Shown here piece by piece: positions 23,291-64,000 of a stretch of 64,000 nucleotides of DNA; within the stretch, counting starts at the first letter, position 1; every line of letters begins with the position of its first letter. Made by a program: the position numbers and the translations under genes. This stretch comes from Gonatopus flavifemur (taxonomy: Eukaryota; Arthropoda; Insecta; Hymenoptera; Dryinidae). The notes under the pieces were generated by a model. That model did no database searches and was not told where the DNA came from. It saw only the letters and a program-made list of their open reading frames with translations. The DNA lies in contig JAFFJZ010000053.1 of the NCBI GenBank assembly GCA_018340375.1, forward strand, positions 310,001 through 374,000, in the 5' to 3' direction.

Positions 23291-23566
23291 ACCCTGTGCG
23301 ACTCAAACGCCAAGCGCGCTGAAGATGCTGGTCAGCCGTGACCCGATATGGCGATGTGGATAGAAATCTTTTTCCATAGACTGTGGCAAGTATAGTTGAT
23401 AAAATACATGGAATATCCTTCATTTATGATAAAAATTAATTATTATTATCATTATTACTAATATTCTCATCATTAACAAATCTCGTTCATTAGAAGTATA
23501 CAAACCTTTCTTACATTAACGTCATGAATATTATTACAAGTGTATGTATGTTGTTTATGAAATTGA

Positions 23567-37481: not shown

Positions 37482-40057
37482 TCAATCTGATTCCCAATAA
37501 TTAGGAATCATAGCAATACGACTTCCCGTAGCGGTGTTCAGTAGTATTGCCGGTGAGAGAACCGTCTCGCTTGATACATAGGCCACAGTTTTTGTTGGTT
37601 GAATATTTTTCATATAGTAAGAACCAAACGGGTCGCCAGTTAGCTGAAAAGGTTCAACAGACAATCCAGAAATTGTCCGACCTTCGTGAATAAAACTAAC
37701 AATATCAATAATTTCACAGAATCCTATATCATTGCGATACACTATTGAATTATTGAATTTAGTAGTTACATTAACATTTCTACAGCGACATTCAATTCCA
37801 TTTATCACTGCTTTTTTAAGAAAGTGCAGTGTTATATTATTATCATATCCTGTGAGAATAAGCGCTCGGAGTGCAGTACAAGTTGCAACTAATTCTTGAG
37901 ATTTCCCAACACCGATAAATTGATATCTGTGTTTTAGAAATTTCCGCTTTGTAAACAAAGAACGGAGAGAATCACGAGTACGTTCGGTCAAAGAATTATC
38001 ATAAATCACTGCGGCAATTGATCTATCCATTAAAAATCTTGTAACAATTTGCAATTGTCTGCTATGCGCACTTGTGACGTTATCAAGAATTTTTTTGTTC
38101 CACGATTCGAATACGAAAGCATTGTGTCCCCAAATTGGGCCCCAATTTCGAACAGTATATGGCAAGTGTTGTAATAAATGTACATTAAATGTCATGTTAA
38201 CTTCTGTAAACTGTTCCTGATATTCTTTCACGTATTTTTCCAAAAGACATTTCGCTTTTTCAAATTCATCCATCGTAATCGAACTTTTATTAAAAATATA
38301 TATCGCTCTCACAAACATACTCAAAGATCGAGATAAGATTTATCTATAATATCTTCAAGACAAGGAAAGCAGTAGTAATGAGCCCAGTTCCTCCATTCTG
38401 AGGCTTTCCACAATTTATAAGTTTCAATTGGTCTAGGTTTTCTGGAAATGCAACTAGGGGGTCCGGAATTGAGTAACCGCTTATTTATTCTCTTCAAGTT
38501 ACGCGTATTCCCAAAGTATCAAGAAGCACTTGATGGTCCAAATGAAAGGAGCTCAGTATGTTTTTTTATCACTCCTAAGAATGCATTGTGCATTGCCTCA
38601 ACGACAACGCCGGATGAAACTTGAAACTCCGGTAAGGTCATCAAAAACGATGGGCCTTCAACACCTCGTATTATATTCGAACTATGTGCGGCTTGTAACA
38701 TATCAGAGCGTAGGTCTACTTCATGTCTTAAATTAATTTTCTTCTCATATGGGTAAAATCTCCGGAGATGATTTTTTCGTAAAGTTTTTCCAGGAGCGTA
38801 ACAAAAAGTGCACCCAAATTTGCCATTCGAGTGTCTCATGTTTAAAACGGGAGCACGAGCTTTCAAATCTACACTGCAAAGGATTACTGCAAATTTACTT
38901 TGAATTTCCGCATTTTCAGATGTTTTCCATACTATACCTTGTTCATATAGTTCTTTCAATTCTTTGACAATAGGCAAAAAAAATTCGTTCATGATTGGAT
39001 GCTTCTCATCGATCCATAGTCCCGCTAAAATCAAATATCTCTTTCGACTATCAGGGGGCAATCCATTTATTTGTAAAAACACGGGCCATGCATTACCTTT
39101 AGAAGAATTAGCAAGGCTGCACCCGTCAGTGAAGATATTAAAAGTAAAATTGTGAGGATTACTTAAGAAATTTCCTGGAAGACAAAGTTTTTTATACTGT
39201 TCCCCATCGTAAATATTATCCAAAGAATCCTGATTTTTTTTTACCCGTGAAAATCGATGTTGCAATAGTTTTTGAATATTAGGAAATCGAAGTAACTTCT
39301 CCAGTTGTGCTTTGCAAACAACTTGTAAGGAGTATTTCAAGTACTTTTTATTTTTCCCTGGCCCACTTTTCCCACATGAGCACTCTATACTAACAACATC
39401 ATCTTTTCCAACACATTTCAGACAATTGTAACAATAAATATGACGCGTCATAACGGAATCATTCCGACGTAGTAACTTTCATAAAGTTTTCATAGTTCCT
39501 GGCAACTCGTTTTCCAAGTGATTTTGCTTAGCTATTTGGATTAGCGATATTACAGCTTCATACGGTAACTTAAATCTTACAGCAACTGCAATAAGACTAA
39601 CAAAGTAGTATTTTGCAGAACATTCTGGTTGTGGTGTCATAGGCTTCAATAGCTCCTTGAGACTGAAATCTAAAAATGAGTTTGGTTTATCCATTTCGTT
39701 AATTCCAACCTCCACGTTATCTCCATTGGATTCCCTCACTTTCATCTTCATATGATTTCTTTCCAACATTCCCAATTCTGGTAGTTCAACTGAATGTTGA
39801 AACTGATCTTCCTGCTCTAAATTATCATCCTCAACTGAAGTATTATCAAAGTTTATACAGTTACTGCTCAACATTTCTTCTGAATGCAGTTCCTCATTTT
39901 CCGCAGCACTGAGATCTTCTTCTGACAAGTGATCGATAAGATTTCTTTCTTTGCAATCTTCTGTATCTTCTGCATGAGATATATCGCTCTCATTACCTAC
40001 ACTGAAATTATTCATTATTTTTAATAACCCACATGAAAATGTCATTAAATAGTTCAT
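37482..40057 (-). pseudogene. Tnp2-type (EnSpm/CACTA-like) transposase
   Basis: The protein is split in three. The first part (40057-39479) has a long acidic N-terminal region and then SLIAVAVRFKLPYEAV. An in-frame TGA follows (39479-39481). The next part (39451-38519) has YCYNCLKC (zinc-binding start), then NIFTDGCSLANSSKGNAWPV, LAGLWIDEKHPIMNEFFLP, APVLNMRHSNGKFGC..C and EAMHNAFLGV. These match the Tnp2 transposase fold of EnSpm/CACTA elements. After a frameshift near 38519, 38324-37482 has VHLLQHLPYTVRNWGPIWGH and FVFESWNKKILDNV, like the DUF4218 C-terminal region. Only two breaks separate it from an intact ~850-residue protein. Terminal CACTA repeats were not identified. Confidence 0.72.
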
Positions 40058-41832: not shown

Positions 41833-44658
41833 TGTTACGTCAAAACTATTAGCCTTTTAGTTCTTTATGTAACCTTCGATAGTTAAAGGAAGGCATTGGA
41901 TCATCGAGTCCAATGTTCCCTTTAATACCCCACTTTAGCTAGGATAAAAACCCTAGACGAGGACTGGGGAGAGGATATTGTTTGAAATAATATAAAGATC
42001 AATTTTTATACTGAAATGCAAGATGGTATATTCTAAAAAGAAAAACAATGATGTCTTGAAATTACAAAGTTACTAAAATAAAATCTTAACTATCATAAGT
42101 TCATAAATTCAAATTCAAATTAAGTTAAAGATCTTTTCTGTTCAATATAAGAAAGAGAAATATTCACTTAATCTTTGAAGAACTTGGATCTTGTTTTAGA
42201 TGAATTCAATAATTCATCGAATTTCGATTCACTTTAAACAAAACAAAAAAATAGGGTTAGAAAAGATCAGAAGTGAAAGTATTCCAAAGAAATAGGAGAA
42301 ATAACTCTGAGGGTTGCTCAGTAGATTAATTTCTCTTCAATGGAATGAAAATAGTTTAATTTCATGCATTAGGTTTGAGATTTTCAAAAAAAAATACAAG
42401 TATGGAAATAAGGGATTTTGGGAAGGGAGATGATCACTCAGAACCCGAGAAATATTAAGATTTCATAATCGATTTTTCATCAACGTAATCGATGGAAATT
42501 TAAGGTAGGGAGAGGAAAGGTAAGAGGAAAAATATCCTGAAAAATAAACGTTGTTATCGATTATTCTGAAAGAGAAAATTAAAAGGAATATAAAAGAATA
42601 GATTATAGTTAAAATACCTGTTTCTTAAATTCTGAATTTCAGAGCCTCTTTGAAATTTGATAAATTCTCTAATTCCTTTCTTGAGAATTCTAAAATTTTC
42701 TCGTCATAAGAAAGGTTGTTCAAAAATTTATTCCTTGCTGGACCCGATGAAGGAATATCATTATCTCTAATTTTCCTATGTTTAATTTTTATTCTTTTGA
42801 TAATACAAAATATTTTCCTCTCAAGATTGTTAATTCTTTTGTTTACTTCTTGCTCCACTAAAACCAAAAGAAAGGAGCAAAAGCTATTAATTAAAATTTC
42901 TAAAATATGACTTTATTATTCAGAGTTTTTAATAAAATTCTATATTCAAAGAAAATATTTGAAAGAAACATTCCTAAATTAGAATTTTCTCTTTCCACAT
43001 GTATGAAATTATGTTGCAGTCTTTCAAAATCAATCATTAAAGAAAAGAAATTAGGAAAAAAGTAATAGGAAGAAGGAAAAGAAAAGATTTTTACTTACTT
43101 TTGTAGAATAACAGGAAAGTTTTCGTTGCTCCACACAAGTCTTATTCAAACCTTTATTGAGTGAATGAATATTAGAATCGTGTGTGGAGTTTAACACCTT
43201 TTCGAATTCTTTTAATTTCACACAATTTTCCTACTGTAAATTTGAAATATTAACTTCACTTCACTTTAACTTTTAGAAACGGTAATTAGAATTTGAAATG
43301 TTAAAACTTTTCTGTAAGAGTATTGAATTGAGATTTTGAATTTGAACTTGTAAATTTTAGAAAACTGATTGAACCTTTTTAAAAGAAAGCACGAACAAGA
43401 GTGAGTTATTCATGCATTTTCGCTCAATTCTCAGCTCGGTTTTTAGATGGTGAGGGAAAATTTCAATAGTAGGGAAATGTGGGTGGGAATAATAGAATTT
43501 CAGAAAGAAGAAAATGGAGTTCAGATAGGTTGAAGTAGCATGGAATCGTGCATTACCTGAGGGTAGGCTTGTCCTTGAAAAGGAAATTCTCCATTTTCTT
43601 TAATTGGGACAACCCACTTACCCTTTCTCTTGAGCATAATGCCTAACTTATGCTCTCTTTTTAAAATGTATATATTTCTCTTTCTTGATGTACTATTCTA
43701 CAGAATTCTTATTTTAATTCAAAATCAATTATTAATTAGAAAATTGTTAGTTGTCAATGATTATTTAAATTATTCACTACAAGAACATTTCAAAAAAAAT
43801 GATAATTTTCTATTCTAATTATTGTAACAAGAATTTCAATATTTATATTCGTTTTGGTTACCTTCAACTTACCAATACTTACCATTTCAAGAACGTGAAC
43901 TTTCATTATTTTAAATAATGTTCCATTCTGGTTTAAACTTAGAATTTTGCATTATAGAGATGCTAGATTGGGCCAGCATTGGCAGCCAATCTTGAATTTC
44001 TAAACCAATGGTTAAATTGGTGTTAGAATCTGAATTTTCATGTGTATTAACATGTTCAAGGCTGAATTTAACCAAGATCGACGAAGATCGGCAAACGATA
44101 CTTCGCCAACCCTGGACCAACCTTGGCCCAACGAAGAGTATTGGGGCTTTTTCATTATAAATAAAAAAAAGAAACAAATTGAATATTTGTCGTATTCTTT
44201 ATAGTGAATTTACTTGAGAAATTTCCAGACAGAGTTGGCGACACAATTCTTCGCTCTAATCCTCTGCTGTCTACATTTCAATGAGGTTTTTATTACGGGG
44301 TAATTTGGAATTTGATTTTATTTGGAAAAGGATGTAATAAAAGAGGAAGAAAAGGGTCTCTGGTTTTCCAGATTTACTTGTCCCTTTTACATACGGCACA
44401 AACATAACGGGAACACAAGTTGTTCTCAACTTGTGTTTTAAAGGGAGACTCCTTTTTCTCTATAATTTGAGTGTAAAGAAATCTTCCTTTACCGTATGTG
44501 TAATTCTCCTGGGTCGAATTTATCGATAGGGCAACAGATATTCTGTTTTACCCTATTGATAATTCGTTCATAGAAATTTAACAGAAGGAAAGATTCAAAA
44601 AAAACAAATAGAAAGAGAAAGAGATAAAATTTGGAAGAAATTTTACGTTCTCGTTACA
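41833..44658 (-). repeat. 3' LTR (2,826 bp)
   Basis: On the minus strand it starts TGTAACGAGAACG at 44658, right after the polypurine tract, and ends GACGTAACA at 41833, giving TG..CA ends. It is identical to 62002-64000 apart from few changes. An AATAAA polyadenylation signal lies at ~43152-43157 on the minus strand, in a CTCAATAAAGG context followed by GTGTGGAG. A GTAAGT and a pyrimidine-rich ..TTTTAG downstream in the same strand look like splice signals. A LINE-free, AT-rich LTR of this length is unusual. Confidence 0.9.
43152..43157 (-). promoter_or_regulatory. Polyadenylation signal in LTR
   Basis: AATAAA on the minus strand followed by a GT-rich segment; position would place the R region ahead of ~43.1 kb. 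Present in both LTRs. Confidence 0.5.
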
Positions 44659-44675
44659 CCTCCCCCCTTTTTTTG
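44659..44675 (-). promoter_or_regulatory. Polypurine tract
   Basis: On the minus strand AAAAAAAGGGGGGAGG directly precedes the TG of the 3' LTR. This is the expected plus-strand DNA primer site. Confidence 0.85.
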
Positions 44676-44851: not shown

Positions 44852-46822
44852 TTACACATTAAGTCCATAGGGGCGTTTTGGCATTTCAGACTCTGTTGGC
44901 AATTTGTTTGACGGGTAGAGTGGTTCGTGCTGTTTGTTGTCATCTGTTGGTGATTTTAGGTCCGGAGTAGGAGCTTCGTTCCGTTTCGTGAGCTTTCTCT
45001 GGTTGATGTGCAATAATAGATTGGTAGCAGAATCCCATAGCGAAACCACTAGATATGGTGACCAGCCATATACAGAATGTAATGCAAAAACATGTATTGC
45101 GGTATCAATTATCAACTTGATGATTTTGCAAGTGAGAATAATTCCCAATATTCCTGCACTGAATGTTCCGAAAGTACTGAAACCGATCCAGAGCTTGTTC
45201 CAGGTTGAATTTGCAATATGCTCCAGGGTCTTCTCATCCAAAATCGAACTCCAGCTTATTCCACGTAGTTCTGTAGGTTCTCCAGTAGCTGCGCGAATTA
45301 TGTTATTCACAATCGATGGTTGGTCAAAAGGCGACATGATATATTTATTGAGCCTTTCAATATCGTCTTCAGTGTAAATTCCTTGTTTGGCCAGATTTCC
45401 AGGGTTACGGTAGATCCAGGTTGGTGTGGTCAGGGGCTTCATGGTGTACGGTTCGGTAGTTTATGATAAAAATGGTAGCAATTTATACCAGACTCCTTCA
45501 ATTTCATACATTGGTGGAATCAGGTTATTACATGGAATTTCTGTCCCTTGGTTTTTCAAAATATGTGTTTTAGGCATCATGAAGTAATTATTTTCGCCTT
45601 TCTTTACCGGTAGTTCCTGGTAACATCGTGTGGTCGAGGTAATTTTAACTTCCACTGGTACGCATTTAATTAGTCGGATGACTTCGCCGGTGATGATTGC
45701 GGTATAACCAGGGCCTTTTTGGAAATTGAATGCAAATTCTTCTGGTCTCATTAAAGCCAGGGTTTGTGCATTTAGAAGAACTTCTCTTTCCAGTTTACAT
45801 CTCTGCAGCATAACGTCCTTGTATAATCCGTTGATTTGGGTCCGGATGTACTGCTCGACGTAAACGAATTTGCTGTTTACGTACGTAAATAGGTCCAGAT
45901 TTTGAGTATTCATGGGTTTTGGTCGTGAGAAGAAACTCTCACGTCTTCCTTCCAAGATGAACAGCTTCGGATGTTGAGTCTTGATAATTTGGTATCCGCA
46001 TAACGATTGTGATCGTTCAGCGGTCAGGGCAAAAGTGATGTCTTCGGTTTTTGCGGTGTATATAGTTTCAGGGTAGTGTTGAGATAAATCCTGTAGTTTT
46101 GTAGAGTATCCTTCATAGAGTACTCCATATCGACTGAACTGGCAAATTTCATGGGGTATGGCGTCCCAGTACATGTATCCTCCGGTGATGTCCATACAAT
46201 GTCCAATGCTTAAGGTGCATTGTGTTCCTGATTGAAGATATAACACGTTCTTCTCTACATCTGTTTTGGCATAGTATTCTATTAAGGTGACTTTAATTGA
46301 TCCTTGGACGACGACACCATTCCAGTTTCCGTATGGATCACTGTATTGTGTTCCATCACAATCTCCATCAGATGTGATTTCTCCCGCTAAAGTTAACGTG
46401 AAAGTTGAGGTGGCGTTAACTTTAATTCCGTCGATGGTGTTTGATCCTATGGTTAAGCGTCCTGTTTCGTGTAATCTTTTGCAGTTGTCCCTGGTAGTCT
46501 CTTGAATGTATTCTGCAATCCCTTTGGTTACAGCTCCAGCATGTGAAAATAGTCCGCAATGGTGGATTTCTCGGAATATATCCACTTTGCATAGTTGCAC
46601 GTGGGCAAAACCAAAGTCCATAAGTTGTAATAGTTGAATGTAAGTTGAGGTCTCATTAACTATTGGTTCCGAGATATTACAATCTCCTATTTTATTCAAG
46701 GAAATTGTCGTGATATTCGCATTGGGAGCTGCACAATCATATGCAATCAATCCGTCAGCAGATCCTGAGTATAGTCCGATGATGACGATGCTGAATTGCC
46801 ACAGAACCGTCTGTAGTGCCAT
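44852..46822 (-). CDS. env: Envelope glycoprotein, chuvirus/mononegaviral type, one in-frame TAA
   Basis: Membrane fusion glycoprotein of the element. The likely start is the ATG at 46822, followed by a hydrophobic signal peptide (WQFSIVIIGLYS). An upstream in-frame ATG at 47002 precedes a pyrimidine-rich CACCCCCAACAG splice-acceptor-like site, so it is probably not used. The ectodomain is Cys-rich, with N-glycosylation sites. An in-frame TAA lies at 45461-45463 (about residue 454). The same frame continues to 44852, and the transmembrane anchor and cytoplasmic tail (hydrophobic stretch near 45060-45200) lie after the stop. Composition and Cys layout remind me of chuvirus-like glycoproteins captured by insect retroelements, not of the baculovirus-F-like env of gypsy. 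This is from memory and needs a search. Confidence 0.72.
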
Positions 46823-47100
46823 TTTTTTTTTCTGTTGGGGGTGAGTTGGATTTAATTCAGAATAAAAATATAATAAGGGTTGAATATAATACAGAATAAA
46901 AATATAATAACTAAAATAAGGCTCGAATATTGAGCTTAATTTTAACAACATTAATATTTGAAAAAAGTTGATTATTCTGTTTTTTTTAATAGTTTTTATC
47001 AAATTTTATCCTTTTTTTTCTTGTTTTTTTTTTTTTCAATATATCTTTATATATACTCATTTACATGTAAGTAGTGAGGAAAAGAAATATCTGTATTTAG

Positions 47101-47137
47101 AATATATATATATATATACCCATATATATATATATTC
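47101..47137. repeat. (TA)n tract
   Basis: TATATATA runs in the spacer between env and the accessory ORF. Confidence 0.8.
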
Positions 47138-47155
47138 GTGTCGTGCAAAAGAAGT

Positions 47156-48805
47156 TTACTGTGATTTTGGCATTTTCATACCACAGTTTGAACAAAAGTT
47201 AACTGCCATCTGATTAGTTAATCTATACAAATCTATTCCACAGTGCGAGCAAAAGATTTGCTGTGGGTTTGAATTTATTAATGGGGAACACCTGATGGCA
47301 TATTTATTACAATTTACTTTAAATGAATTATTGCACTTAGAATGTACAGGGAGTCGATTTGATATTTTTGTAAAGTTTTGAACTTTTGACACTTCTATTG
47401 TTACTTCATCTGAAGTTGTTTTATCTTTCTTGTAAGGGTTTGTGAATTTACATTTGGATGGCAACATCAATGGTTTCTCTGCTATGCTCTCATTTGCATC
47501 TATGAATCTTTTTGCAATTATATCTTTTGACCTTTCAATGGCAACTTGCAATGCGAATCTTCTAAACCGCCATTCTAATGCATCTTTCTGATGTACACAT
47601 ATGTAACAAAAATCACGTGTATCAAAGTCATTGAGGAAAGCATGTCCTTGGATCTTGGTCCAGCTCTTATGATTTGAGTCTTTACAACGCAGGGAATTGA
47701 ATAATTGTTTATCTACTCCTACAATGGTATCGTCTTTCCAAATGATTTTGTCACAATAGGTTGTTTTACCTTTGGGTGGCTCTACTGGTTGAAATCTTTC
47801 AAAAATACTAGGGATCTTAATTGGGGCAACGTATTTTTCCAAAAAACTGCTATCATTATTAGGAGCGGTATAACGGTAGTATATTGTTAAAATTTCAAGA
47901 ATTTGGCATCTTCGATTCCATTCTATCTGATTTGATGATTTTATGCAGATTTCGCAAAAATCACGAGGGTTCAAATTACACATACGTGCCTTCATTTGTA
48001 ATTGAGTTTGATTGTGAGTTTTTTCTTGACATTTTATTTTACTGAACTTAATATTGCCTATTCCTTTTATTCCATCTAATTCCCAATGTATTTGGTCGTT
48101 CAGTTCATTATCGAACATTCCCTTTTTGGCCAAAATTTTATAATATTCCAAGTCTTTAGAAAATGAATTTTGGTCGGATTCAAGATGAGCTTTGTTATCA
48201 ATAAAAATGTTCGAACTCATCAAATCACTGCGAACGGTTGCTAAATACAAGGTGTCTTTTCGGAATTTCCATTCCCTAATATCCTTTTTATAGACACACA
48301 AATGACAGAAATCTCCAAAATAAAGGTCATGTTGGTTGGCTTTTACTTGAATGGGAGTCAGATCAATATGTTGATGTGAGAGATCACAAGTGAGAGCAGA
48401 AAACAGTTTTTCATCCATACCTCTGATGTTACCATTATCCCAAATAAGTCGATTACAAACTCGTGTTTGTTTTTGAACGGAATATTCGTGAATCATGGCA
48501 TTTCTATTGATAGCTAGAATCTTCTCTGGGGGTTCCCCAGTAAAAGTCGCATCATAGATATTAACATTTGATTCTCCTTTTGCACAAATTGGGACTGAAA
48601 CATCTTGATTTCTAGTGAATTTATAATGAATCTCATTAGAATCTACATTTATTTTATCGTATTTTAAGAAAAATGACGGTTAAATTAATGGTTTTTCTTC
48701 CGTTTTTTCGAATTCCATATCTCCAGGGTCGCTGGATGATAGGGGGTCCTTGTAGTTGTTTGCAAAATATTCCATAGGGAAATCTCCGGTTTTTAGGTAT
48801 TCCAT
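47156..48805 (-). CDS. Accessory protein: three Cys/His modules plus zinc ribbon
   Basis: I do not recognise this family. From the ATG at 48805 there are 41 codons, an in-frame TAA at 48680-48682, then an unbroken frame to 47156; an internal ATG at 48496 gives 446 residues. Numbered from that ATG, three tandem modules share I-x-W..G..F..C-x(3-4)-H..D-F-C-x-x-C, followed by a basic W-R/K-F-R helix. They have C37/H41/C64/C67, C156/H161/C181/C184 and C271/H276/C297/C300. Modules 1 and 3 also share an upstream Cys (C14, C248) exactly 23 residues before the next Cys. The C-terminus is a zinc ribbon, C416-C419..C435-C438. The gene lies between pol and env, where complex retroviruses keep regulators. 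An RNA- or DNA-binding role is inference. Confidence 0.75.
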
Positions 48806-49456
48806 CTCTGGGTGTCAGAGTATGGGATTGGTACGCGTATAAAAAGTGCGTGATTTTACTGTGAGGAAAAATAATAAAAGATTATTAATAAATGAATTTA
48901 TGAAAATTATATAAATTTATACTAACTTTTGATTTTATGATGAAAGAAGGAAAAGAAAAAAAAATTTGTAATTTTAGTTAATATACAATATATTAATTTT
49001 GACAGGGAATTTTAAGAAAACTTATTTATGAATATTTAAAAAAAAATGAATTTACATTTATTTATAATTATAAAATTGTTATCCCAAATGAATGATAATA
49101 ATAAAAACAAAGAGAAAAGAAAAAATATAGGGGTGATTATAGTGATATTATATGAAAATTATTTAAACAACTAATAAGTAGTTATAAACTGAAATAGTCA
49201 GACATTGTTAATAACTTTAAAATTTACGTTAAGATAGATAAATGCGTTTATAGTCTGACATATAATTTGAGTTATTTTGCACTATAATATGTATTTTTTT
49301 TTTTTTTTTTTTTTTAAGAAATATTTTTAGAAAAAGAAAAAGGATAGAAATATGGAGGTTAAATTTTTTTATCTGAAAGGTTAGAAATTATATATATACA
49401 ATCATACACACATTCATACATTCATACATGTGTAAAGATTCAAATTGAATTAATAA
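48806..49456. other. pol-accessory intergenic region
   Basis: AT-rich with a T-run at ~49290-49315; no gene. It may contain the splice acceptor for the accessory mRNA just upstream of 48805. Confidence 0.5.
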
Positions 49457-52400
49457 CTAATCATTACTGTTATCATCTTGGTTATTGAATAGAACTATTC
49501 TGTCGATAGAAACTACTTTATCTCGTTTTCCTATTTGCAATTTAACGTTCTTATCGTTAAGAATTTCCATTATCTTGTATGGACCTTCATAAAGATTTTC
49601 CAGTTTCATAGGTTTCATTCCTTTTTTCAAAAGAACCATGTCTCCTGCTTTGAATTTTATAATCTTAGTTGTTCGATCATAATAATTCTTTGCCTTTTCC
49701 TTGGCGATTCGCAAATTTTCTCTGGCTTCACGCTGAAATTTATCTAGACGAGCCATTAATTTGATCAAGTATTCGTCATAAGTTTTTAATTGTTCAAACG
49801 AAGGCAAAGGTTCACTAGAAGGTAGCAAAGGAAATTTTCCAAAAATTAACTCATATGGAGTACGTTTCGTTCCTTCGTGTATACTAGTATTATATGACAA
49901 CATTGCTAACTCAACCCATTGATCCCATTCGGAGTCTCGCGACACATATTGCCGGAGATATTCTGCTAAAACAGCATGTGATCTTTCCAAGGAACCGTTG
50001 GTTTGTGGGTGGAAAGCAGTTGTATTTAATTGTCTAATTTGTAGTCTTTTAGTTATAGTTTTCATAAATTTAGAAATAAAATTAGAGCCCTGATCTGTAA
50101 GTATTACTTTTGGTGCTCCATAGATGCATACAAAGCGTTTTAGAAAAGCATTCGTTACAGACGAAGCAGTTGCATTTTGTAAGGGGACTCCTGTACAATG
50201 TTTTGTTAACAAACACTGCATCGTGAGTATGTATCGATTTCCTTCTTGTGTAGGCGGGTTAATAGGTCCCACAATATCTAGAGCGATTTTTCCAAAAGCA
50301 TAACCAGGTGTATCGGTTATCATCATTGGTTGTCGAGTTCGGGTTCTAGTAACCTTTTTCAATTTACATGGGAGACATCCAGAGATATAATTCTGAACGT
50401 CCTCTTTAATGTACTCCCAGTAGTAGTTCAGTCGTAATCTATTGAAGGTTTTGGCTACTCCTTTGTGTCCTCCAGCAGTGGAATCATGTGCTTCTTCAAT
50501 TAATTTTCTTCTTATTGATATCTCGGGAATTTTCACTATTCCAAGACAAAACGTAAGTTTTATTGGAATGTGGCAGAATTCTTTATTGAACTCAATCACG
50601 ACTCTGTCCCAATCGAGTTCATTCGTGATTTCAATTTTCGGGACACAACAACTGCTTATTTCATTTAGTCTCATGAATAATTTCATTTCTCGGATACAAT
50701 TTTGTAAATTCATCATGGTTTCTCTCGGTGTAGGGATTCTATCAGATGGTTCAATATAAAGGCCAAACCACCATCTAATCCCTTTTTTAATTGCGACGCA
50801 TCTTCCTAGATTTGTTGGTTGGAAACATCCAATGTCGAATTTTTCTGAAAATTTTTGAATAACTGGTTCAAAGGGTTTTCCTTGATCATTGAGAAAGAAT
50901 GTATAGTTATCTTTTTTCAACTCTAAAGGATCTCTCGATTCATATATATTCGAACCTAAAATTAGTTTATTCAAATCTTTGTACAAATTCTCATAATTTT
51001 CCTCTTCATCAGATTCTTCGTATTCTAAGTTTTCATTCTCATCTATAAATTCAGGTGAATTTTCATGAACAAATTCATCATCAGATTTTTCACTACATTC
51101 ACTATGTACAGAAGGTAAGTCATGGCTTAAGTCGTTGTAACCTTCTACCGTATCTCTATTGAGACGTTCGCAATGTAAATCTTCATTTTCTGATTCATAA
51201 TTGGGAATTCTTTCTTCGGACTCATTTTGATCCATATCATGTATGCTGTTATTGTAATATTCATGATGTTCAGTTATCAATTCTTGATTATTTGAATGAT
51301 CAGAATGATTTTTATGTTCATTCAATGGATCTCGATCATCATTAAATTTTTCGATGAAGTCATTGAGCTTTTCCAAAGATTCTTTCTCAATTTGACGATT
51401 TTTTCTTTTAATTTCGTTGCGGTATTGTTGTCCTTTTTCTGTAAGTTTTGGGATTCTCGTCGATCTTCTCGGTTGTGGTGCATTTACATTATATAATATT
51501 CTAATATCTTCGACTATTTCCTTGTTATTTACAAAATCTTCTCTTAAAAACGGTGGATTTCTAGAAAGAGCATCTGCATTGACATTTGTCTTCCCAGCTT
51601 TATATACGACATCGAAGTCATATTCTTCCAATTTCAATCTCCATCTGGTTAAACGAGAAGTTGGATCTTTCGCAGTCCTCATCCATATTAGTGGTTTGTG
51701 ATCCGTTACAATTGTGAATTTTCTTCCATATAAATAAGGACGAAATTGGGACACACTATAGAGGATCGCAAGTGCTTCTTTTTCGTATGTACTATATTTC
51801 ATTTCTGTTTGATTTAATAGTCGAGATACATAGGCGCACGGCTGGTCCTTTCCAATTGGTCCTTGGCTCAAAATGCCGGCTATTGCATAACCACTTGCAT
51901 CCGTAGTTAGCAAAAATGGTTTGTCAAAATCTGGATACTTTAATACAGGTTTTTCGCATAAACAATTTTTTAAAGTTTCAAAAGCTTCTTGTTGCTCTTG
52001 ATTCCATTCGAATGGAACATCCTTCTGTAATAATTTTGTTAACGATTTAGAAATTTTTGAAAAATTATGAATGAAGCGTCGATAATATCCAGCTAATCCC
52101 AGGAATTGCTTGATATTTTTAGAATTCTTCGGGATCGGAAAATGTCGAACAGCTTCAATCTTCTTCGGATCTGGTTTTAATCCTTCATCAGAAATTACAT
52201 GTCCGAGATAGGCAACTTCTCGACATAAAAATTCACATTTATCTGGTTGAAGCTTGAGATTTGCTTCTCTTAATCTTGTAATAAAATTCAAATATTTCTT
52301 CCGATGTTCACTCAGAGTTTTTGCATAAATTACTACGTCATCTAAGTAAACAAATAATTCAGTTCCTTGCAGCCCAGTCAACACAATATCCATCAGGTGT

Positions 52401-53074
52401 TGGAAGGTTGCAGGTGCATTTTTTAAACCAAACGGCATTCTTACAAATTCATAATGTCCATGAGGCGTGGAAAATGCAGTTTGATGTCGGTCCTTATCAC
52501 TCATTTTGATCTGGTGAAATCCAGATGCAAGATCAAAGGTGCTGAAATATTTTGCATCTCCTAGTTGATCTAAAATTTCCGTTATATTAGGTAATGGATA
52601 AGCGTTATTAACAGTTTTTTCGTTTAACGCTCGAAAATCTAGGACAAGTCTCCATCGTTTGTTTCCATGACTGTCAGCCTTTTTTGGTACAATCCATACA
52701 GGAGTATTGTATGGGGAAGTTGATGGTTGAATTATGTCATTATTCAATAATTCGTCAACTTGTCTAATAATTTCATCCTTCAAATTTGGAGGAAATCTAT
52801 ATTGTTTTGTGTGAATTGGTTTATCGTCCGTTGTAGATATTTCGTGATCCAATACATCCGTGTGAGTCAATTTATCTCCAGGAATATGGAATCGATCTAA
52901 GCTGTGTTTAATTAGAATTTCAACTTCTTCTCTCTCTTCTTGATTTAGATGGTCTAACCTCAATAGTTGTTTCGTTTTCTTCCCTAGTAAAATTGATGGA
53001 TTTCTGTGAAATTTTATATAAGTTTCGTTTCTTCCGATTCGTAGTTCGCCGTCGGATAGTTTGAGTAGTTTCAT
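49457..53074 (-). CDS. pol: pol: reverse transcriptase, RNase H, integrase
   Basis: 1,205 codons without a break. Residues ~90-260 are the RT: WIVPKK, LDFRALNEKT, FSTFDLASGFHQI and the active site YLDDV at ~243. RNase H follows at ~370-500 (LTTDASGYAIAG, TDHKPLIW, DALSRNPPF). Next is an unusual acidic spacer of about 250 residues. A tether domain comes before integrase, containing FFLNDQGKPFEP and LGRCVAIKKG as in the macro-like region of Ty3/gypsy pol. The integrase has an HHCC finger (H..GGHKG..CLPCK), and the core is ALDIVGP, LTDQGSNF and GSLERSH, with 35 residues between D and E (DD35E). The frame is that of gag, +1 relative to pro. Confidence 0.96.
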   Translation of the reverse strand: MKLLKLSDGELRIGRNETYIKFHRNPSILLGKKTKQLLRLDHLNQEEREEVEILIKHSLDRFHIPGDKLTHTDVLDHEISTTDDKPIHTKQYRFPPNLKDEIIRQVDELLNNDIIQPSTSPYNTPVWIVPKKADSHGNKRWRLVLDFRALNEKTVNNAYPLPNITEILDQLGDAKYFSTFDLASGFHQIKMSDKDRHQTAFSTPHGHYEFVRMPFGLKNAPATFQHLMDIVLTGLQGTELFVYLDDVVIYAKTLSEHRKKYLNFITRLREANLKLQPDKCEFLCREVAYLGHVISDEGLKPDPKKIEAVRHFPIPKNSKNIKQFLGLAGYYRRFIHNFSKISKSLTKLLQKDVPFEWNQEQQEAFETLKNCLCEKPVLKYPDFDKPFLLTTDASGYAIAGILSQGPIGKDQPCAYVSRLLNQTEMKYSTYEKEALAILYSVSQFRPYLYGRKFTIVTDHKPLIWMRTAKDPTSRLTRWRLKLEEYDFDVVYKAGKTNVNADALSRNPPFLREDFVNNKEIVEDIRILYNVNAPQPRRSTRIPKLTEKGQQYRNEIKRKNRQIEKESLEKLNDFIEKFNDDRDPLNEHKNHSDHSNNQELITEHHEYYNNSIHDMDQNESEERIPNYESENEDLHCERLNRDTVEGYNDLSHDLPSVHSECSEKSDDEFVHENSPEFIDENENLEYEESDEEENYENLYKDLNKLILGSNIYESRDPLELKKDNYTFFLNDQGKPFEPVIQKFSEKFDIGCFQPTNLGRCVAIKKGIRWWFGLYIEPSDRIPTPRETMMNLQNCIREMKLFMRLNEISSCCVPKIEITNELDWDRVVIEFNKEFCHIPIKLTFCLGIVKIPEISIRRKLIEEAHDSTAGGHKGVAKTFNRLRLNYYWEYIKEDVQNYISGCLPCKLKKVTRTRTRQPMMITDTPGYAFGKIALDIVGPINPPTQEGNRYILTMQCLLTKHCTGVPLQNATASSVTNAFLKRFVCIYGAPKVILTDQGSNFISKFMKTITKRLQIRQLNTTAFHPQTNGSLERSHAVLAEYLRQYVSRDSEWDQWVELAMLSYNTSIHEGTKRTPYELIFGKFPLLPSSEPLPSFEQLKTYDEYLIKLMARLDKFQREARENLRIAKEKAKNYYDRTTKIIKFKAGDMVLLKKGMKPMKLENLYEGPYKIMEILNDKNVKLQIGKRDKVVSIDRIVLFNNQDDNSND

Positions 53075-53687
53075 GGTTCATTTTCTCAATTTCTTCTAAT
53101 TTGAGTATAGGAATAGATACTTGGACTTCTTCAGTGGTGGTGTTGATTATAGGCATGTATATGTATCCATTATGATTTTTGACAACTGCATTACCCATAT
53201 ATACACCATTGGTTATAGTTGCACGGGGTATATAACCTTCCGATGAATTGGTCTCTTCAATTTGGATTTTCACAATTTTTCTAATTCGTGGGGGAATTGT
53301 ATAAACTCTAGTTTCTTGGATGAAAGGAATTTTCTTTGAATTATTCAATTCTAAACAGTTTTCTGCCCAGTTAATTTTGGCTTTCTGTTCTGACAAAAAG
53401 GTGATTCCGATAATTCCATCATGTTTAATGGGAAAATCGTCAGGCACTACATAAAATGTGGTTATGTGTCCGATAAAATTCATATCGAATTTTCCTAAAG
53501 TTGGCACCTTTTCCGGTGATATTCCTGTTAAATACAGTATCTCATCAGTATCAATTGCAGTCAAGTCTTCTATCACGTTTTGTTTGATTAGACAAACTCC
53601 AGCACCTGAATCTAATAGAAAGGTGCCGATTCGAGGTCCGATTCTTACTTGAATTGCCGGAGAATGCAATTCCAAAGCTAATTTCAC
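52920..53687 (-). CDS. pro: Retroviral aspartic protease
   Basis: TFLLDSGAGVCLI carries the catalytic D-S-G, and a hydrophobic flap and HDGIIGITFL (the second conserved loop of pepsin-like retroviral proteases) follow. It matures Gag and Pol. The frame is -1 relative to gag: gag stops at 53684-53686 within the overlap, so it is likely reached by ribosomal frameshifting. It overlaps pol by about 155 bases in a third frame. Confidence 0.9.
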   Translation of the reverse strand: MKLALELHSPAIQVRIGPRIGTFLLDSGAGVCLIKQNVIEDLTAIDTDEILYLTGISPEKVPTLGKFDMNFIGHITTFYVVPDDFPIKHDGIIGITFLSEQKAKINWAENCLELNNSKKIPFIQETRVYTIPPRIRKIVKIQIEETNSSEGYIPRATITNGVYMGNAVVKNHNGYIYMPIINTTTEEVQVSIPILKLEEIEKMNHETTQTIRRRTTNRKKRNLYKISQKSINFTREENETTIEVRPSKSRRERRS

Positions 53688-55738
53688 ATCAGTGGTTCGA
53701 TTGTATCTTCCGCGTGGACCATTGCATGGTGTATGCTTTGATTCGATCGGATAGTATTTTGAGTTCTCACCATATTCTGATTTTGAGTATTTGCCTCCCT
53801 GCGAGGGAGGCTCTGGGAGTTTCCCGAGCTCCTCAAATTTTGAGCGTCTTTCCGGACTCTACACTCTTCAATAGTGTGAGTATTATTTTTGCAAAATGTG
53901 CAATAACTTCCATTACTTTGTCGAGATTCCAGTTGATAACAGTTTTCCGCGGTGTGCCCGATTTTTTTACAAAATTGGCATTGCACAGTCGGCCTCAGAT
54001 TCCTTGTTGGAATTTCCGGACAGCGATCTGCTTCGTGTCCATTTCTTTTACACAATTGGCAATTGACGGAGCTTCTACAATCTTTTGCAAAATGTCCGAA
54101 TTTATTGCATTTTAAACAGGTTTTATTCAAAGGACAACTTTCAGTGATGTGATTTGTCGAACTACATTTTTGACATCCTCTAGGTTGCATCATTTGGATG
54201 GGTACGTAATATCTACATTCATCGGCCCTATGTCCGATTTTTTTGCAAATTTGACAGGTGTCCGAACTTCTTTGAAACGAGTCTCTGCACTCGCGGATTG
54301 TATGTCCGTATTTTCGACAGTTGTTACATCTCACATTATTTTGACTTCTGCATGATGTTGCTGAATGTCCGAATTTTTTGCAAATTTGGCATTGAATTTG
54401 CTCATTATCTCTGATTTGTTTATATTTGTGGCATTGTGTGGCAGTATGCCCTTCCTTTTCACAAATTTGACACTGGTCATTGTTTTTGAGCTTTTTCCCG
54501 CTTATAATCGGACAGTCACTTGATTGATGTCCAGGTTCTTTACAGAGAAGACATTTTTCTTCCTTAAGGGCCAATTTTCTCAATAATTTTTGAGCTTCAA
54601 TCTCCTTTTCTTTCGTAATTGCCTCTGGTCCAGCATTATTTAGATCTTCTTTTTCTTCCATTTGATTGAGTATCTCTGGTTTCAAGCCTCGTACAAAAGC
54701 TTTACATACAGCAGTTTCAAGCTCTTGTTTTTTAGCATCTGTGATAACATTGGTATTCTCATTTTTATAAGCTTCGATTATTTTAGAACCCAATCTTCTG
54801 GCTCTATTGAAATAAGTGGCCGCGTCTTCATGTGTTTGTTGACATAATGTGCCGAGCTTTCCGATAAGATCTATGCTAGATTCACGAGTAGCATAGATTC
54901 CTTTTAGAACATTTATTAATTGAGCAACTGTTTCAGAATTTGAGGTGCGAGCAATATGTAGTGCTCCATCTCGTAATTTTGATCTTATCATAGTAGTGAA
55001 ATTCTTTTCCATTGCTGGGTCAATAAGTGTCCTAGCATCAGTGCAAGCTGCTGCAAATTCGCTGAAATTGGCTCCATCACGAGTTCCTGAAAATACAGGA
55101 ATCATTGATATGGCATCTTGTATTTTCACATAGTTGTTCGCCATTTTTGTAGTTTTCCTAGTTTTCTTAGTAGATTGATTTCGTATTTTTCTGTGAAGCT
55201 TTTTCTTGCCCTTATTGGTACCAGGAATAGTAACTCTCGAGCTTATACTCAGATTACTAGTTGTCACGTTTCCCTTGAGTGGAGTACTAGTGATAACGGT
55301 ATTTTCCAATGAATTTGACCAGTCGTCTTCCGTTTCTACGTCAGCGTCGTTTGATAAAACATCAGTTGTAGTATCTTCCAAAGTACTAGTATTTTCCTCT
55401 TCTTCAGTATCCTCTTCTTCTGTCTCACTAGTTTCTTCTATTATTTTATCAATGGTACTAGTATTTTGCAAGTCGTTCTGATTTCTTTCACCTTTTCCTA
55501 TAGGATCGAGTTGGGTATTTTCACCAACGTTTTTCTCTTCTTTTTCTGCTTCTACTTCTTTATTATTCTTTTTCTTCTTAGGAGTTCGTGTTATCTTAGA
55601 TTTTGAAGCGAATGGATCTTTTACGTTGTTGAAATCCTTTTCTTCTTGATGTTCCTTCGATGTCGACGGGTCTTGATCACGAGATTTTAACGTTTCCTCT
55701 AGTTTCTTCGTTTGACTACGAGTATTAACGCCTGACAT
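53684..55738 (-). CDS. gag: gag with ten CCHC zinc knuckles
   Basis: 684 codons. Residues 30-140 are highly acidic and Lys-rich (low complexity). A capsid-like helical region follows (PVFSGTRDGANFSEFAAACT..KLRDGALHIA..ATYFNRARRLG..AFVRGLKPEI). Residues ~396-626 (53861-54553) hold ten C-x2-C-x4-H-x4-C zinc knuckles, from CLLCKEPGHQSSDC to CTFCKNNTHTIEEC. Retroviral Gag proteins usually have one or two. The knuckles bind genomic RNA in known families, and the expanded array may increase capacity or specificity. The start is the first ATG of the frame, 6.2 kb downstream of the 5' LTR. Confidence 0.95.
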   Translation of the reverse strand: MSGVNTRSQTKKLEETLKSRDQDPSTSKEHQEEKDFNNVKDPFASKSKITRTPKKKKNNKEVEAEKEEKNVGENTQLDPIGKGERNQNDLQNTSTIDKIIEETSETEEEDTEEEENTSTLEDTTTDVLSNDADVETEDDWSNSLENTVITSTPLKGNVTTSNLSISSRVTIPGTNKGKKKLHRKIRNQSTKKTRKTTKMANNYVKIQDAISMIPVFSGTRDGANFSEFAAACTDARTLIDPAMEKNFTTMIRSKLRDGALHIARTSNSETVAQLINVLKGIYATRESSIDLIGKLGTLCQQTHEDAATYFNRARRLGSKIIEAYKNENTNVITDAKKQELETAVCKAFVRGLKPEILNQMEEKEDLNNAGPEAITKEKEIEAQKLLRKLALKEEKCLLCKEPGHQSSDCPIISGKKLKNNDQCQICEKEGHTATQCHKYKQIRDNEQIQCQICKKFGHSATSCRSQNNVRCNNCRKYGHTIRECRDSFQRSSDTCQICKKIGHRADECRYYVPIQMMQPRGCQKCSSTNHITESCPLNKTCLKCNKFGHFAKDCRSSVNCQLCKRNGHEADRCPEIPTRNLRPTVQCQFCKKIGHTAENCYQLESRQSNGSYCTFCKNNTHTIEECRVRKDAQNLRSSGNSQSLPRREANTQNQNMVRTQNTIRSNQSIHHAMVHAEDTIEPLM
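53861..54553 (-). other. Ten-knuckle zinc array in gag
   Basis: Ten consecutive CCHC boxes spaced by 5-18 residues. The repeats are similar (CQICKKxGHxAxxC is the commonest form), which suggests expansion by internal duplication. Confidence 0.95.
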
Positions 55739-55879
55739 TGACTTTCATTTGGTTATTATAATTTATTTAATGTAGAATTTATTTATTGCATATTCATTCA
55801 CAATATGTTGATATTGTAATATTTGACATATGTTTGAATTTATTCGATTCTCGATTTATGAGAAGATACGTGGCCAAAT

Positions 55880-56640
55880 TACCGAATATAATTGTTCATT
55901 TAACAATTCATTAATTTATTTAACAACAATTTATTTGTTTGTTTGTTTTCAATATCATGTCAAACACATGAAGCGATCTTGTTCGTACGTTTGTCAGAAA
56001 TTTGTGTTCTGAAGTGATAATTTATTTGTTCATAAAAATTATTTATTTAGAAAGAAAGAAATTATTTGATATTTTTCGAAGCAAATCGATTGATTTGGTA
56101 TCATCCAATCTCGTTGGCAATCGTTTCATTTGAATTCTAAAATTGAATTCATTCATAATTATTTATTTATGAAAAATAATTTTCCTTAACAAATTTGTTA
56201 TTGATTTTCCGTATATCCATTCAAATCAGCTTATTCCCGTTTACTGAGATTTTGAACAAAGAATCCACTTATAATTTGTTTATTTATGAAAATTATTTAT
56301 AACAAATTGTTGAAACAAATTTTCGACATCTAATATCCAATGTAGTTTTCTTGGAGAATTCGCGGTTTTATCAAAAATTTTCAAATTATTTATTCATAAA
56401 AAAAAGAATTTGTTTTGAAATTTGTTTATTTAACAAATTTTTAATCTGAGTCTGACCCAATATGGTCCTTTTCTACTTGCAATAAAACAAAAATTTTGAT
56501 TAAAGATAAATTTTATATAATTGTTTATAACAAATGAAATTTGTTTATTTAACAAGTTTTCATTGATTCTCAATATAGCTGATAATGAATAGTTCATTAA
56601 TAAATTTTCATCTGTGCAAAATACTTGCAATTTCCTTCTT
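55880..56640. repeat. AT-rich repeat cluster upstream of gag
   Basis: Variants of AATTTGTTTATTTAACAAA and TTATTTATGAAAATTATTTA recur six or more times, ~60-130 bp apart. The layout recalls the clustered binding sites of the Drosophila gypsy leader insulator, but the sequence is different. Confidence 0.5.
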
Positions 56641-56799
56641 CATTTATCTAATTATTCAAAATACATATACGTGTATAACTCACTCAACTAAAAATCATTC
56701 TCAATTTCCAGAACCTATTCAATAATCATTTATTAAATTGTGTTATTATTCTCATTATCAATATACGAACGAAATACTTATCGATCTACACCTTGAAAT

Positions 56800-57910
56800 A
56801 CTCATCAGCAAATTCTCGTAATGCGATAAGCTTCGCGCTAGTAAGTTCCTAAAAGTTACTAGATTTTCTCAAAACACGTGGACGCGTAACACAATGTGAA
56901 CGCACCACTCTTGAACACGTGTGTTCTCAAGTCGCGTGGACTGCTAGCAGACGAAAACAAAATAGCGGCGTCTATGTTTCGACCCGTGTGAACAAACCGG
57001 CATCGTTATCGCGCATCAAAATACTAATATTTAATATCACGAAGTCGTGAACGATAAAGTATGTTAAAAGTGAGTGTAGTTTGATAAAGTGCAATGAATC
57101 TAGGATTGAAACACGGACCGTGTTTTCGTCACGAGTCAGATAAGTATTAGAACATTTGAAACAATAATAAAAGAATTATTGCTTTGTGTCAAAATTTTTA
57201 ACTCTTTTTTCAGCAATTCAAAAAGTAAGAAGGATGTCGGAGTAATGTTTCTGGAGGATCAAATATTCGCCTCAATATTGGACAAGTTCAACTGAAAATA
57301 ATATACACAGTGAGTATTTTTATGCATGTAAAACTTTCAAGCAAACTTTTCAAAGTTGAACTTTCTAAAAAAAAATTGAAAGAAAGTTCATACGGTTCAA
57401 CAAATCCAAGTTTTTATTCTACTAGTGATAAAAATGGAAAAAATCTATATAATCGGTAGTAGTTGTTCACGCAATATTCCAATTCAATGATATAGCGAGT
57501 ATAAAAGAAAGTAGTTAATAGAGTCACATGAACTGTATGTACTCGCTTTTACTCAAAAAATGATTTATCGTTGGTTAAAGTATCATATTCATCTAATGTA
57601 TCACATATTTATCGTCCACAGCAGTTAAAACCAGGGATAATCAGTGATCCAGAGGACGATTGGTGAAGAGACGTCAAAGAAAAGGATCAATTATGATGAG
57701 AGACGACTGAAGCGCACCAGGAATACAAAGTTCTGAGTATGCAGCGTCAAATATAAAACAGATTTCAGTCTACCCGTTGATACTCTGAGTCACACACTCC
57801 CGTCGTGTATGAACTTTCACCAGGATCACTCTCGGAGGAGGAAATTCAAGTTCTATCGAGAACATCTACAGTCCATGTTCTTATGATGGTAACGTTATAA
57901 GTTTTGAAGA
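56800..57910. repeat. Leader duplication, copy 1
   Basis: Diverged direct repeat of 60790-61740. Shared landmarks in order: an ACGCGTG/CACGTG-rich block with GAACACG..TCTCAA..CGCGGACT, a GTGTGAACAAACCGG-type stretch, TATAGCGAGTATA, and TT(A)TCGTCCACAGCA. Plus-strand splice-like sites: GTGAGT at ~57070 and ~57309, ..TTTTTTCAG at ~57213, CCACAG at ~57621, GTAAGA at ~57912, TTTACAG at ~58154. Confidence 0.6.
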
Positions 57911-61740: not shown

Positions 61741-61966
61741 TATGGTGTGAAACGACTAAAGTGAGAAGACTGAGTCGTATAAAGAAGTGAATTAGTGTGT
61801 GTGTGTGTGTTCGCTAAAGAAATCTTTTCAATTTTATTCTTCGGAACAGCCAATGTGGTTGTACCAACTTTTATTCTTTTAATAAGTGATAGAAGTTTGA
61901 AAATAATGATATTTATTCAATATTTGAAAACAGAATTAGAAACATTTCAAACGATATCCTCGCGTG

Positions 61967-61983
61967 TCCTACCGACTGCGCCA
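61967..61983 (-). promoter_or_regulatory. Primer-binding site, tRNA-Ser
   Basis: On the minus strand TGGCGCAGTCGGTAGGA, 18 bases inside the 5' LTR edge. From knowledge of tRNA-Ser 3' ends (..CGACTGCG plus CCA) this is a perfect complement. Several insect Ty3/gypsy elements use tRNA-Ser. Confidence 0.85.
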
Positions 61984-62001
61984 AAATTTTTAACTATCGT
62001 C

Positions 62002-64000
62002 TGTTACGTCAAAACTATTAGCCTTTTAGTTCTTTATGTAACCTTCGATAGTTAAAGGAAGGCATTGGATCATCGAGTCCAATGTTCCCTTTAATACCCC
62101 ACTTTAGCTAGGATAAAAACCCTAGACGAGGACTGGGGAGAGGATATTGTTTGAAATAATATAAAGATCAATTTTTATACTGAAATGCAAGATGGTATAT
62201 TCTAAAAGAAAAACAATGATGTCTTGAAATTACAAAGTTACTAAAATAAAATCTTAACTATCATAAGTTCATAAATTCAAATTCAAATTAAGTTAAAGAT
62301 CTTTTCTGTTCAATATAAGAAAGAGAAATATTCACTTAATCTTTGAAGAACTTGGATCTTGTTTTAGATGAATTCAATAATTCATCGAATTTCGATTCAC
62401 TTTAAACAAAACAAAAAATAGGGTTAGAAAAGATCAGAAGTGAAAGTATTCCAAAGAAATAGGAGAAATAACTCTGAGGGTTGCTCAGTAGATTAATTTC
62501 TCTTCAATGGAATGAAAATAGTTTAATTTCATGCAATAGGTTTGAGATTTTCAAAAAAATACAAGTATGGAAATAAGGGATTTTGGGAAGGGAGATGATC
62601 ACTCAGAACCCGAGAAATATTAAGATTTCATAATCGATTTTTCATCAACGTAATCGATGGAAATTTAAGGTAGGGAGAGGAAAGGTAAGAGGAAAAATAT
62701 CCTGAAAAATAAACGTTGTTATCGATTATTCTGAAAGAGAAAATTAAAAGGAATATAAAAGAATAGATTATAGTTAAAATACCTGTTTCTTAAATTCTGA
62801 ATTTCAGAGCCTCTTTGAAATTTGATAAATTCTCTAATTCCTTTCTTGAGAATTCTAAAATTTTCTCGTCATAAGAAAGGTTGTTCAAAAATTTATTCCT
62901 TGCTGGACCCGATGAAGGAATATCATTATCTCTAATTTTCCTATGTTTAATTTTTTATTCTTTTGATAATACAAAATATTTTCCTCTCAAGATTGTTAAT
63001 TCTTTTGTTTACTTCTTGCTCCACTAAAACCAAAAGAAAGGAGCAAAAGCTATTAATTAAAATTTCTAAAATATGACTTTATTATTCAGAGTTTTTAATA
63101 AAATTCTATATTCAAAGAAAATATTTGAAAGAAACATTCCTAAATTAGAATTTTCTCTTTCCACATGTATGAAATTATGTTGCAGTCTTTCAAAATCAAT
63201 CATTAAAGAAAAGAAATTAGGAAAAAAGTAATAGGAAGAAGGAAAAAGAAAAGATTTTTTACTTACTTTTGTAGAATAACAGGAAAGTTTTCGTTGCTCC
63301 ACACAAGTCTTATTCAAACCTTTATTGAGTGAATGAATATTAGAATCGTGTGTGGAGTTTAACACCTTTTCGAATTCTTTTAATTTCACACAATTTTCCT
63401 ACTGTAAATTTGAAATATTAACTTCACTTCACTTTAACTTTTAGAAACGGTAATTAGAATTTGAAATGTTAAAACTTTTCTGTAAGAGTATTGAATTGAG
63501 ATTTTGAATTTGAACTTGTAAATTTTAGAAAACTGATTGAACCTTTTTAAAAGAAAGCACGAACAAGAGTGAGTTATTCATGCATTTTCGCTCAATTCTC
63601 AGCTCTGTTTTTAGATGGTGAGGGAAAATTTCAATAGTAGGGAAATGTGGGTGGGAATAATAGAATTTCAGAAAGAAGAAAATGGAGTTCAGATAGGTTG
63701 AAGTAGCATGGAATCGTGCATTACCTGAGGGTAGGCTTGTCCTTGAAAAGGAAATTCTCCATTTTCTTTAATTGGGACAACCCACTTACCCTTTCTCTTG
63801 AGCATAATGCCTAACTTATGCTCTCTTTTTAAAATGTATATATTTCTCTTTCTTGATGTACTATTCTACAGAATTCTTATTTTAATTCAAAATCAATTAT
63901 TAATTAGAAAATTGTTAGTTGTCAATGATTATTTAAATTATTCACTACAAGAACATTTCAAAAAAAATGATAATTTTCTATTCTAATTATTGTAACAAGA
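62002..64000 (-). repeat. 5' LTR (partial, runs off window)
   Basis: Direct repeat of 41833-43831. The remaining ~830 bp, including the upstream promoter part, lie beyond the window end. The small open frames inside it are not conserved in frame between the two LTRs. Confidence 0.9.

Follow-up and report, generated by a model that had tools for sequence, protein, structure and literature searches.

A probable accessory gene with a triplicated Cys/His module between pol and env of a Ty3/gypsy-type retroelement in the hymenopteran Gonatopus flavifemur

The Metaviridae carry between one and three genes: gag, pol and, in some of them, env (PMC7879559). Extra genes have been described for several individual elements. 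Cer1 of C. elegans encodes CERV, a separate Ty3/gypsy protein made from a spliced mRNA, which is needed for export of the genomic RNA, possibly contains a C4 finger and is described alongside Rev (PMC10309623). The MDG1 group of Drosophila elements possesses sORF1 and sORF2, short reading frames upstream of gag (63-107 aa for the sORF2-like proteins); the excerpted account of this group holds no splicing evidence, describes the elements as being without a fusogenic Env and proposes a role in cell fusion for sORF2 (PMC11952523). Burro, a giant Gypsy element of planarians, combines a mononegavirus-like fusion glycoprotein, encoded in frame between gag and pol, with extra domains (MATH/TRAF, BCL2-like and others) located in the polyprotein or in an upstream ORF (PMC6431247). 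The plant elements Retand and Grande harbour an extra gene downstream of pol, which is suspected to specify a DNA-binding regulator, contains a TRP28 domain and runs antisense to gag-pol (PMC11963269). Finally, type III fusion glycoproteins are known in some gypsy elements (PMC13172572), and envelope proteins of the chuvirus class are known in BEL/Pao elements, including Anakin of mosquitoes (PMC7642597).

Here we describe a locus in Gonatopus flavifemur (Hymenoptera, Dryinidae), studied in a window of 64,000 nucleotides (contig JAFFJZ010000053.1 of assembly GCA_018340375.1, positions 310,001 to 374,000). The minus strand from 41833 to 64000 is most of one Ty3/gypsy-type, endogenous-retrovirus-like LTR element (Table 1), as classed from domain order and the likeness of Pol rather than from an RT tree; the order found by Pfam, protease-RT-RNase H-integrase, is also common to BEL/Pao elements and retroviruses. 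As in the Metaviridae, there are two LTRs with a primer binding site (PBS) and a polypurine tract at their inner edges, the 5' LTR lying partly inside the window. The PBS presumably corresponds to the 3' terminus of insect tRNA-Ser. Over the 2004 alignment columns in view, the LTR pair is 99.55% identical and differs by 2 mismatches plus 6 gap openings; the element is young and its LTRs are nearly identical. If both LTRs are equal, the full element would span about 23 kb.

Table 1. Positions of the features of the element within the window (all on the minus strand)
Feature	Coordinates	Strand	Remarks
5' LTR, part inside the window	62002..64000	-	element continues past window end
Primer binding site	61967..61983	-	
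gag with ten CCHC knuckles	53684..55738	-	
Aspartic protease, PF00077	52920..53687	-	
pol: RT, RNase H, integrase (PF00078, PF17917/PF17919, PF17921, PF00665)	49457..53074	-	
Splice-acceptor-like site, pyrimidine tract and CAG	48859..48871	-	54 nt upstream of ATG 48805
Acidic N-terminal stretch, 41 codons	48683..48805	-	pI 4.1, charge -6.5
Accessory ORF, stop to stop, 507 codons	47156..48679	-	between pol and env
Longest ATG-started form, 446 aa	47156..48496	-	first ATG below the TAA is 48496
Module 1, ORF residues 54-152	48224..48520	-	
Module 2, ORF residues 180-270	47870..48142	-	without the extra first Cys
Module 3, ORF residues 291-386	47522..47809	-	
C-terminal CxxC-x15-CxxC zinc-ribbon motif, ORF residues 477-499	47183..47251	-	in basic tail
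Splice-acceptor-like site	46832..46840	-	directly before env ATG (46822)
env, Monjiviricetes-type fusion glycoprotein PF24664, two in-frame pieces	44852..46822	-	TAA 45461-45463 between the pieces
Polypurine tract	44659..44674	-	adjoins 3' LTR directly
3' LTR, TG...CA	41833..44658	-	about 2826 bp; inner edge placed by polypurine tract

The genes follow each other on one strand in the order gag, protease, RT/RNase H/integrase, accessory ORF and env, and the gag and pol frames are uninterrupted. Gag (53684-55738) bears ten CCHC zinc knuckles; one or two is the usual number. In Pol, approximately 360 residues (about 50525-51607), which include an acidic linker, lie between the Pfam matches of RNase H and of the integrase zinc domain. 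A macro domain spotted there by eye, at 50525-50932 between RNase H and integrase, was dropped, as Pfam, NCBIfam and PDB sequences lend it no support. The gap between the PBS and gag (55739-61966) measures about 6.2 kb and contains neither an Rfam match nor, on either strand, an ORF longer than 123 aa started by ATG, GTG or TTG. Beside the element, at 37482-40057, lie three ORFs, one of which matches PF02992 (Transposase_21). Further away, at 23400-27000 and 1-2000, ORFs named by eye as LINE-like are found on a strand extremely rich in G over C (GC skew as high as 0.72), and the C-rich segment 972-1504 aligns in inverted orientation with 26087-26623 at 67% over 552 columns.

The two env pieces match PF24664 with 559.3 and 171.1 bits (cut-off 27; E 1.1e-167). 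The baculovirus-like F-protein family that would be expected in the Env of an Errantivirus (Drosophila gypsy clade) does not occur among the Pfam matches of env. A search of 5.77 billion proteins with the first piece (453 residues) returned 403 relatives at E<=0.001, the best with 59% identity. Among the 120 of these that were listed, 114 comprise 628-785 residues and 6 comprise 482-570, and the 16 that were aligned extend 210-243 residues beyond the last shared Trp versus 8 here. Because the relatives are longer and continue past this Trp, the env stop at 45461-45463 is, by comparison, a lesion or sequencing error of this copy. Eleven of the 120 listed relatives carry a species name (sawfly, ants, parasitoid wasps and bee), and all are what we take to be Hymenoptera; the genera represented include Athalia, Cardiocondyla, Trichogramma, Linepithema, Trachymyrmex, Venturia and Andrena. 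A survey from 2023 reported Gypsy fragments adjoining chuvirus-type glycoproteins in Hymenoptera, and, in the excerpted text, a clear capture by Gypsy was not found (PMC10084718); the present element is an LTR-flanked gypsy-type element with an Env of the chuvirus class. Env of this class (here PF24664) is shared with Anakin, which is not a Gypsy element and in the main text of whose description the words “accessory”, “zinc” and “additional ORF” are absent (PMC7642597).

Between pol and env lies the accessory ORF, and the map of genes and Pfam domains agrees with this placement in the original prediction. Its position and orientation also match the spot where complex retroviruses keep regulatory genes, and an acceptor-like site precedes it. 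The interval first proposed, 47156..48805, held up in that an ATG does lie at 48805, but the frame meets a TAA (48680-48682) after 41 acidic codons, and the open part is 47156-48679. Over the latter stretch the frame contains 0 stops, whereas each of the five remaining frames has 26-59. The accessory gene is interrupted in this copy. The 61 codons between the TAA and ATG 48496 remain open, which fits a once-continuous frame; the TAA may be a lesion, a sequencing error or a normal part of how the gene is read. Overall, the 507 residues make up a basic protein (pI 8.9, charge +16), with most of the charge in the tail (+9.9), while module 1 has a pI of 6.6.

The ORF had been predicted to contain a Cys/His module in three copies, and pairwise local alignment bears this out. 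The module pairs score 89 (1 versus 2), 165 (1 versus 3) and 116 (2 versus 3), against shuffled means of 26.8-27.7 (s.d. 4.6-5.3) and a shuffled maximum of 54, and none of the three scores is attained in 1000 shuffles; on this evidence the modules are homologous. The ligand pattern reads C98-x3-H102-x22-C125-x2-C128 in module 1, C217-x4-H222-x19-C242-x2-C245 in module 2 and C332-x4-H337-x20-C358-x2-C361 in module 3, so that the H-to-C distance, put at about 20-22 residues beforehand, comes close to that range and measures 19-22. The CxxC of every module is followed by an E-W..R stretch, and 18 columns are invariant in all three. The additional Cys that modules 1 and 3 were said to hold at identical spacing is present (C75 and C309, each 22 residues from the next Cys) and is absent in module 2. 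The predicted C-terminal zinc ribbon stands as a pattern, C477-x2-C480-x15-C496-x2-C499, whereas the match to Zn_ribbon_3 in Pfam stays under the cut-off of 27 (23.7 bits, E 3e-5 for the ORF; 25.3 bits, E 9.5e-6 for the tail alone).

The modules resemble no known family: a Pfam/NCBIfam search with the three of them gave a single chance match (E 4.2), and the same search with the whole ORF gave sub-cut-off matches only, all within the tail. Derivation of the module from the integrase H-H-C-C domain was considered and rejected, as the spacing is loosely similar but a Pfam match is lacking. A module profile recovers the three copies in the ORF, i.e., the same sequences from which it was built. 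Scanned against 1546 six-frame peptides of at least 25 aa from the window, together with five shuffled control sets, it produced two further candidates (10.0 and 9.0 bits) that are due to chance, since the shuffled sets have best scores of 7.2-10.7 and two of the five exceed 10.0.

AlphaFold2 modelling from the three-row module alignment yielded a best mean pLDDT of 67.7 (66.6 to 43.7 for the other four models), with block means of 75-84 over residues 41-90. The predicted module begins as a hairpin, has short helices near the Cys/His residues and continues as a long helix after the CxxC; a small zinc domain could look like this. The 446-residue ATG form, modelled alone, was uninformative (pLDDT 31). 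Searches with the module model by Foldseek and VIA-align retrieved no known fold and 0 PDB chains, and three viral Foldseek matches at E 6-10 were judged to be chance; for a predicted model, a missing fold match falls short of proving a new fold.

Relatives of the ORF were sought in 5.77 billion proteins, and none appeared at E<=10, either with the whole ORF (2143 candidates) or with residues 300-400 (15 candidates); the search requires shared 5-residue words and 0.55-1.75 times the query length, and distant or far shorter relatives escape it. Together with the modules' lack of a family match, this agrees with the original description of an unrecognised accessory protein. Since the same database returned the 403 relatives of env, it does contain kindred elements, or their envelopes at the least. 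The ORF would be either restricted to a narrow lineage or much faster in divergence than env, or else any relatives have no exact 5-residue word in common with it, and the result speaks mildly against an old, widespread gene. IMG/VR and GTDB contigs likewise contain no relatives of the ORF; env is missing from both and pol from IMG/VR, and therefore the silence of these collections on the ORF says little. Ten matches to phage records (best E 2) were judged to be chance. Further hits were attributed to chance or composition: three PHROG matches (E 0.12-0.19), PDB sequence matches of the ORF (best macrophage migration inhibitory factor, E 0.79), 15 PDB matches of the module profile (lactoperoxidase first, E 0.074) and 10 of the tail (protein kinase C first, E 0.064).

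Between the modules, pS amounts to 0.670/0.701/0.745, compared with 0.70-0.71 for random codon pairs, and pN to 0.425/0.494/0.537, compared with 0.72-0.73, on an alignment built on amino acids, which itself lowers pN somewhat. Synonymous sites appear saturated and amino-acid-changing sites conserved, which are signs of purifying selection, and they speak for the lineage since the triplication and not for the present copy. Codon preference in the ORF, at 0.056, exceeds the mean of -0.128 in the non-coding leader but falls short of the 0.166-0.252 in gag, pol and env, and another frame of the same region reaches 0.066; in the upstream 61 and 41 codons, another frame likewise leads (0.176 versus 0.101 and 0.369 versus 0.186, respectively). 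These results count against the ORF being a gene, on a crude measure that fails equally to separate the frames of gag (0.212 versus 0.205).

Among 54 YAG sites in 46700-49460, the acceptor-like site ending at 48859 has the top pyrimidine count, and the next ATG after it is the one at 48805. A scan for donors with a strict 9-base pattern, one mismatch being allowed, detected no convincing site in 49000-64000; two one-mismatch sites both fall in the 5' LTR. An intron removing the TAA was also considered and abandoned, as no good donor was found by eye across 48859-48680. Translation of the ORF probably proceeds from a spliced, subgenomic mRNA that uses the acceptor near 48859, and on balance of the features above it is probably a genuine fourth gene of the element.

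Tentatively, we favour a real, probably spliced accessory gene whose product is a zinc-type, nucleic-acid-binding post-transcriptional regulator acting on the RNA of the element. Its three repeated domains would each probably hold one zinc via C-x3/4-H...C-x2-C, and the basic tail with its zinc ribbon would complete the protein. Such a protein would bind nucleic acid and most likely escort or export the very long unspliced RNA of the element, like CERV of Cer1 and Rev of HIV-1; a very long element with at least two acceptor-like sites would need nuclear exit of its unspliced RNA. As far as a comparison by description allows, the ORF resembles CERV in being separate, beyond Gag and Pol, in size (517 aa versus 507 codons) and in a possible zinc finger. 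It differs in that splicing of the CERV mRNA is documented and its own only predicted, in that the first three exons of CERV lie in the gag frame, in that CERV has a helix-hairpin-helix domain, and in its triplicated modules, which the excerpted description of CERV does not include (PMC10309623).

Alternatively, the protein might act in transcription: the modules would bind LTR DNA (2.8 kb), with the acidic N-terminus recruiting the host transcription machinery, in the manner of Tat or Tas. Three tandem zinc-type modules plus a ribbon, the acidity of the 41 N-terminal residues (pI 4.1, charge -6.5) and a very long LTR that might house binding sites would suit such a transactivator. Yet, in this copy the stop cuts the acidic stretch off the modules, and neither a DNA-binding family nor a fold is matched, which makes this reading unlikely. 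Slightly less probable again is a suppressor of host small-RNA silencing, whose modules would shield the element by binding either RNA (small or double-stranded) or a factor of the piRNA/siRNA pathways. Ovarian somatic piRNAs target envelope-carrying gypsy elements in a number of insects, a stingless bee among them (PMC13172572), and rapid divergence would suit both an arms race and the absence of relatives, but no known family, solved structure or fold points there and nothing in the sequence favours it specifically.

It is more doubtful still that the zinc modules bind protein instead of nucleic acid and that the product serves as a protein-degradation adaptor or another antagonist of host proteins, similar to Vif or Vpx. 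Small zinc modules are often protein-binding, and module 1 is near neutral. Ubiquitin- and apoptosis-linked accessory domains are described for the giant Gypsy element Burro (PMC6431247), but the modules here match no RING or similar Pfam family. That the ORF is cargo, either a host gene picked up by the element or part of a different element nested between pol and env, with no role in the cycle of this one, is improbable. Gene capture by LTR elements is known, and pol and env can flank the captured gene (PMC6431247), and no relatives of the ORF were found in other env-bearing elements; set against this, no host or TE relatives came to light in a database that includes NCBI and UniRef proteins, the ORF is on the strand of the element with its own acceptor-like site, and the inverted repeats in 46850-49460 (25 listed out of 27) are mostly A/T-rich or short pairs, none of which flank the ORF ends like transposon termini. 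A non-functional relic whose open frame is already decaying is very improbable: the in-frame TAA in both the ORF and env and the weak codon-preference signal would fit, but 507 codons without a further stop and an amino-acid divergence between modules below random argue against it, and with gag and pol open and the LTRs nearly identical any lesions would be recent.

The locus can be compared with the extra-gene elements named at the outset. sORF1 and sORF2 are likewise accessory proteins of insect Ty3/gypsy elements, and differ in being short and upstream of gag (PMC11952523). Burro, too, belongs to the giant Gypsy elements and has both additional domains and a viral-type fusion glycoprotein, but differs in the position of both (PMC6431247). 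Retand and Grande also have their extra gene downstream of pol, and differ in its antisense orientation (PMC11963269). The claim that no such protein was known from insect Ty3/gypsy elements holds so far for the protein itself, unmatched in these searches, but not for extra genes as such, given Cer1 CERV, MDG1 sORF1/2, the plant elements and Burro. As judged from literature and sequence searches, and with no claim as to its absence from print, what looks new is a protein with a triplicated CHCC module, of which no relative was found, between pol and env.

Complex retroviruses are marked by regulatory genes in addition to gag, pol and env. The element possibly represents a lineage of complex insect retroviruses, i.e., Ty3/gypsy elements with an Env of the chuvirus class that built their own regulator by triplication of a new zinc module with no counterpart among known families or folds. 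If true, retroviral complexity would have arisen independently in an insect element with a self-evolved regulator, and the element would be a test case for the origin of such genes through internal duplication. It would also offer a defined protein for asking how, in insects, retroelement RNAs of approximately 20 kb achieve nuclear exit or escape silencing by piRNAs.
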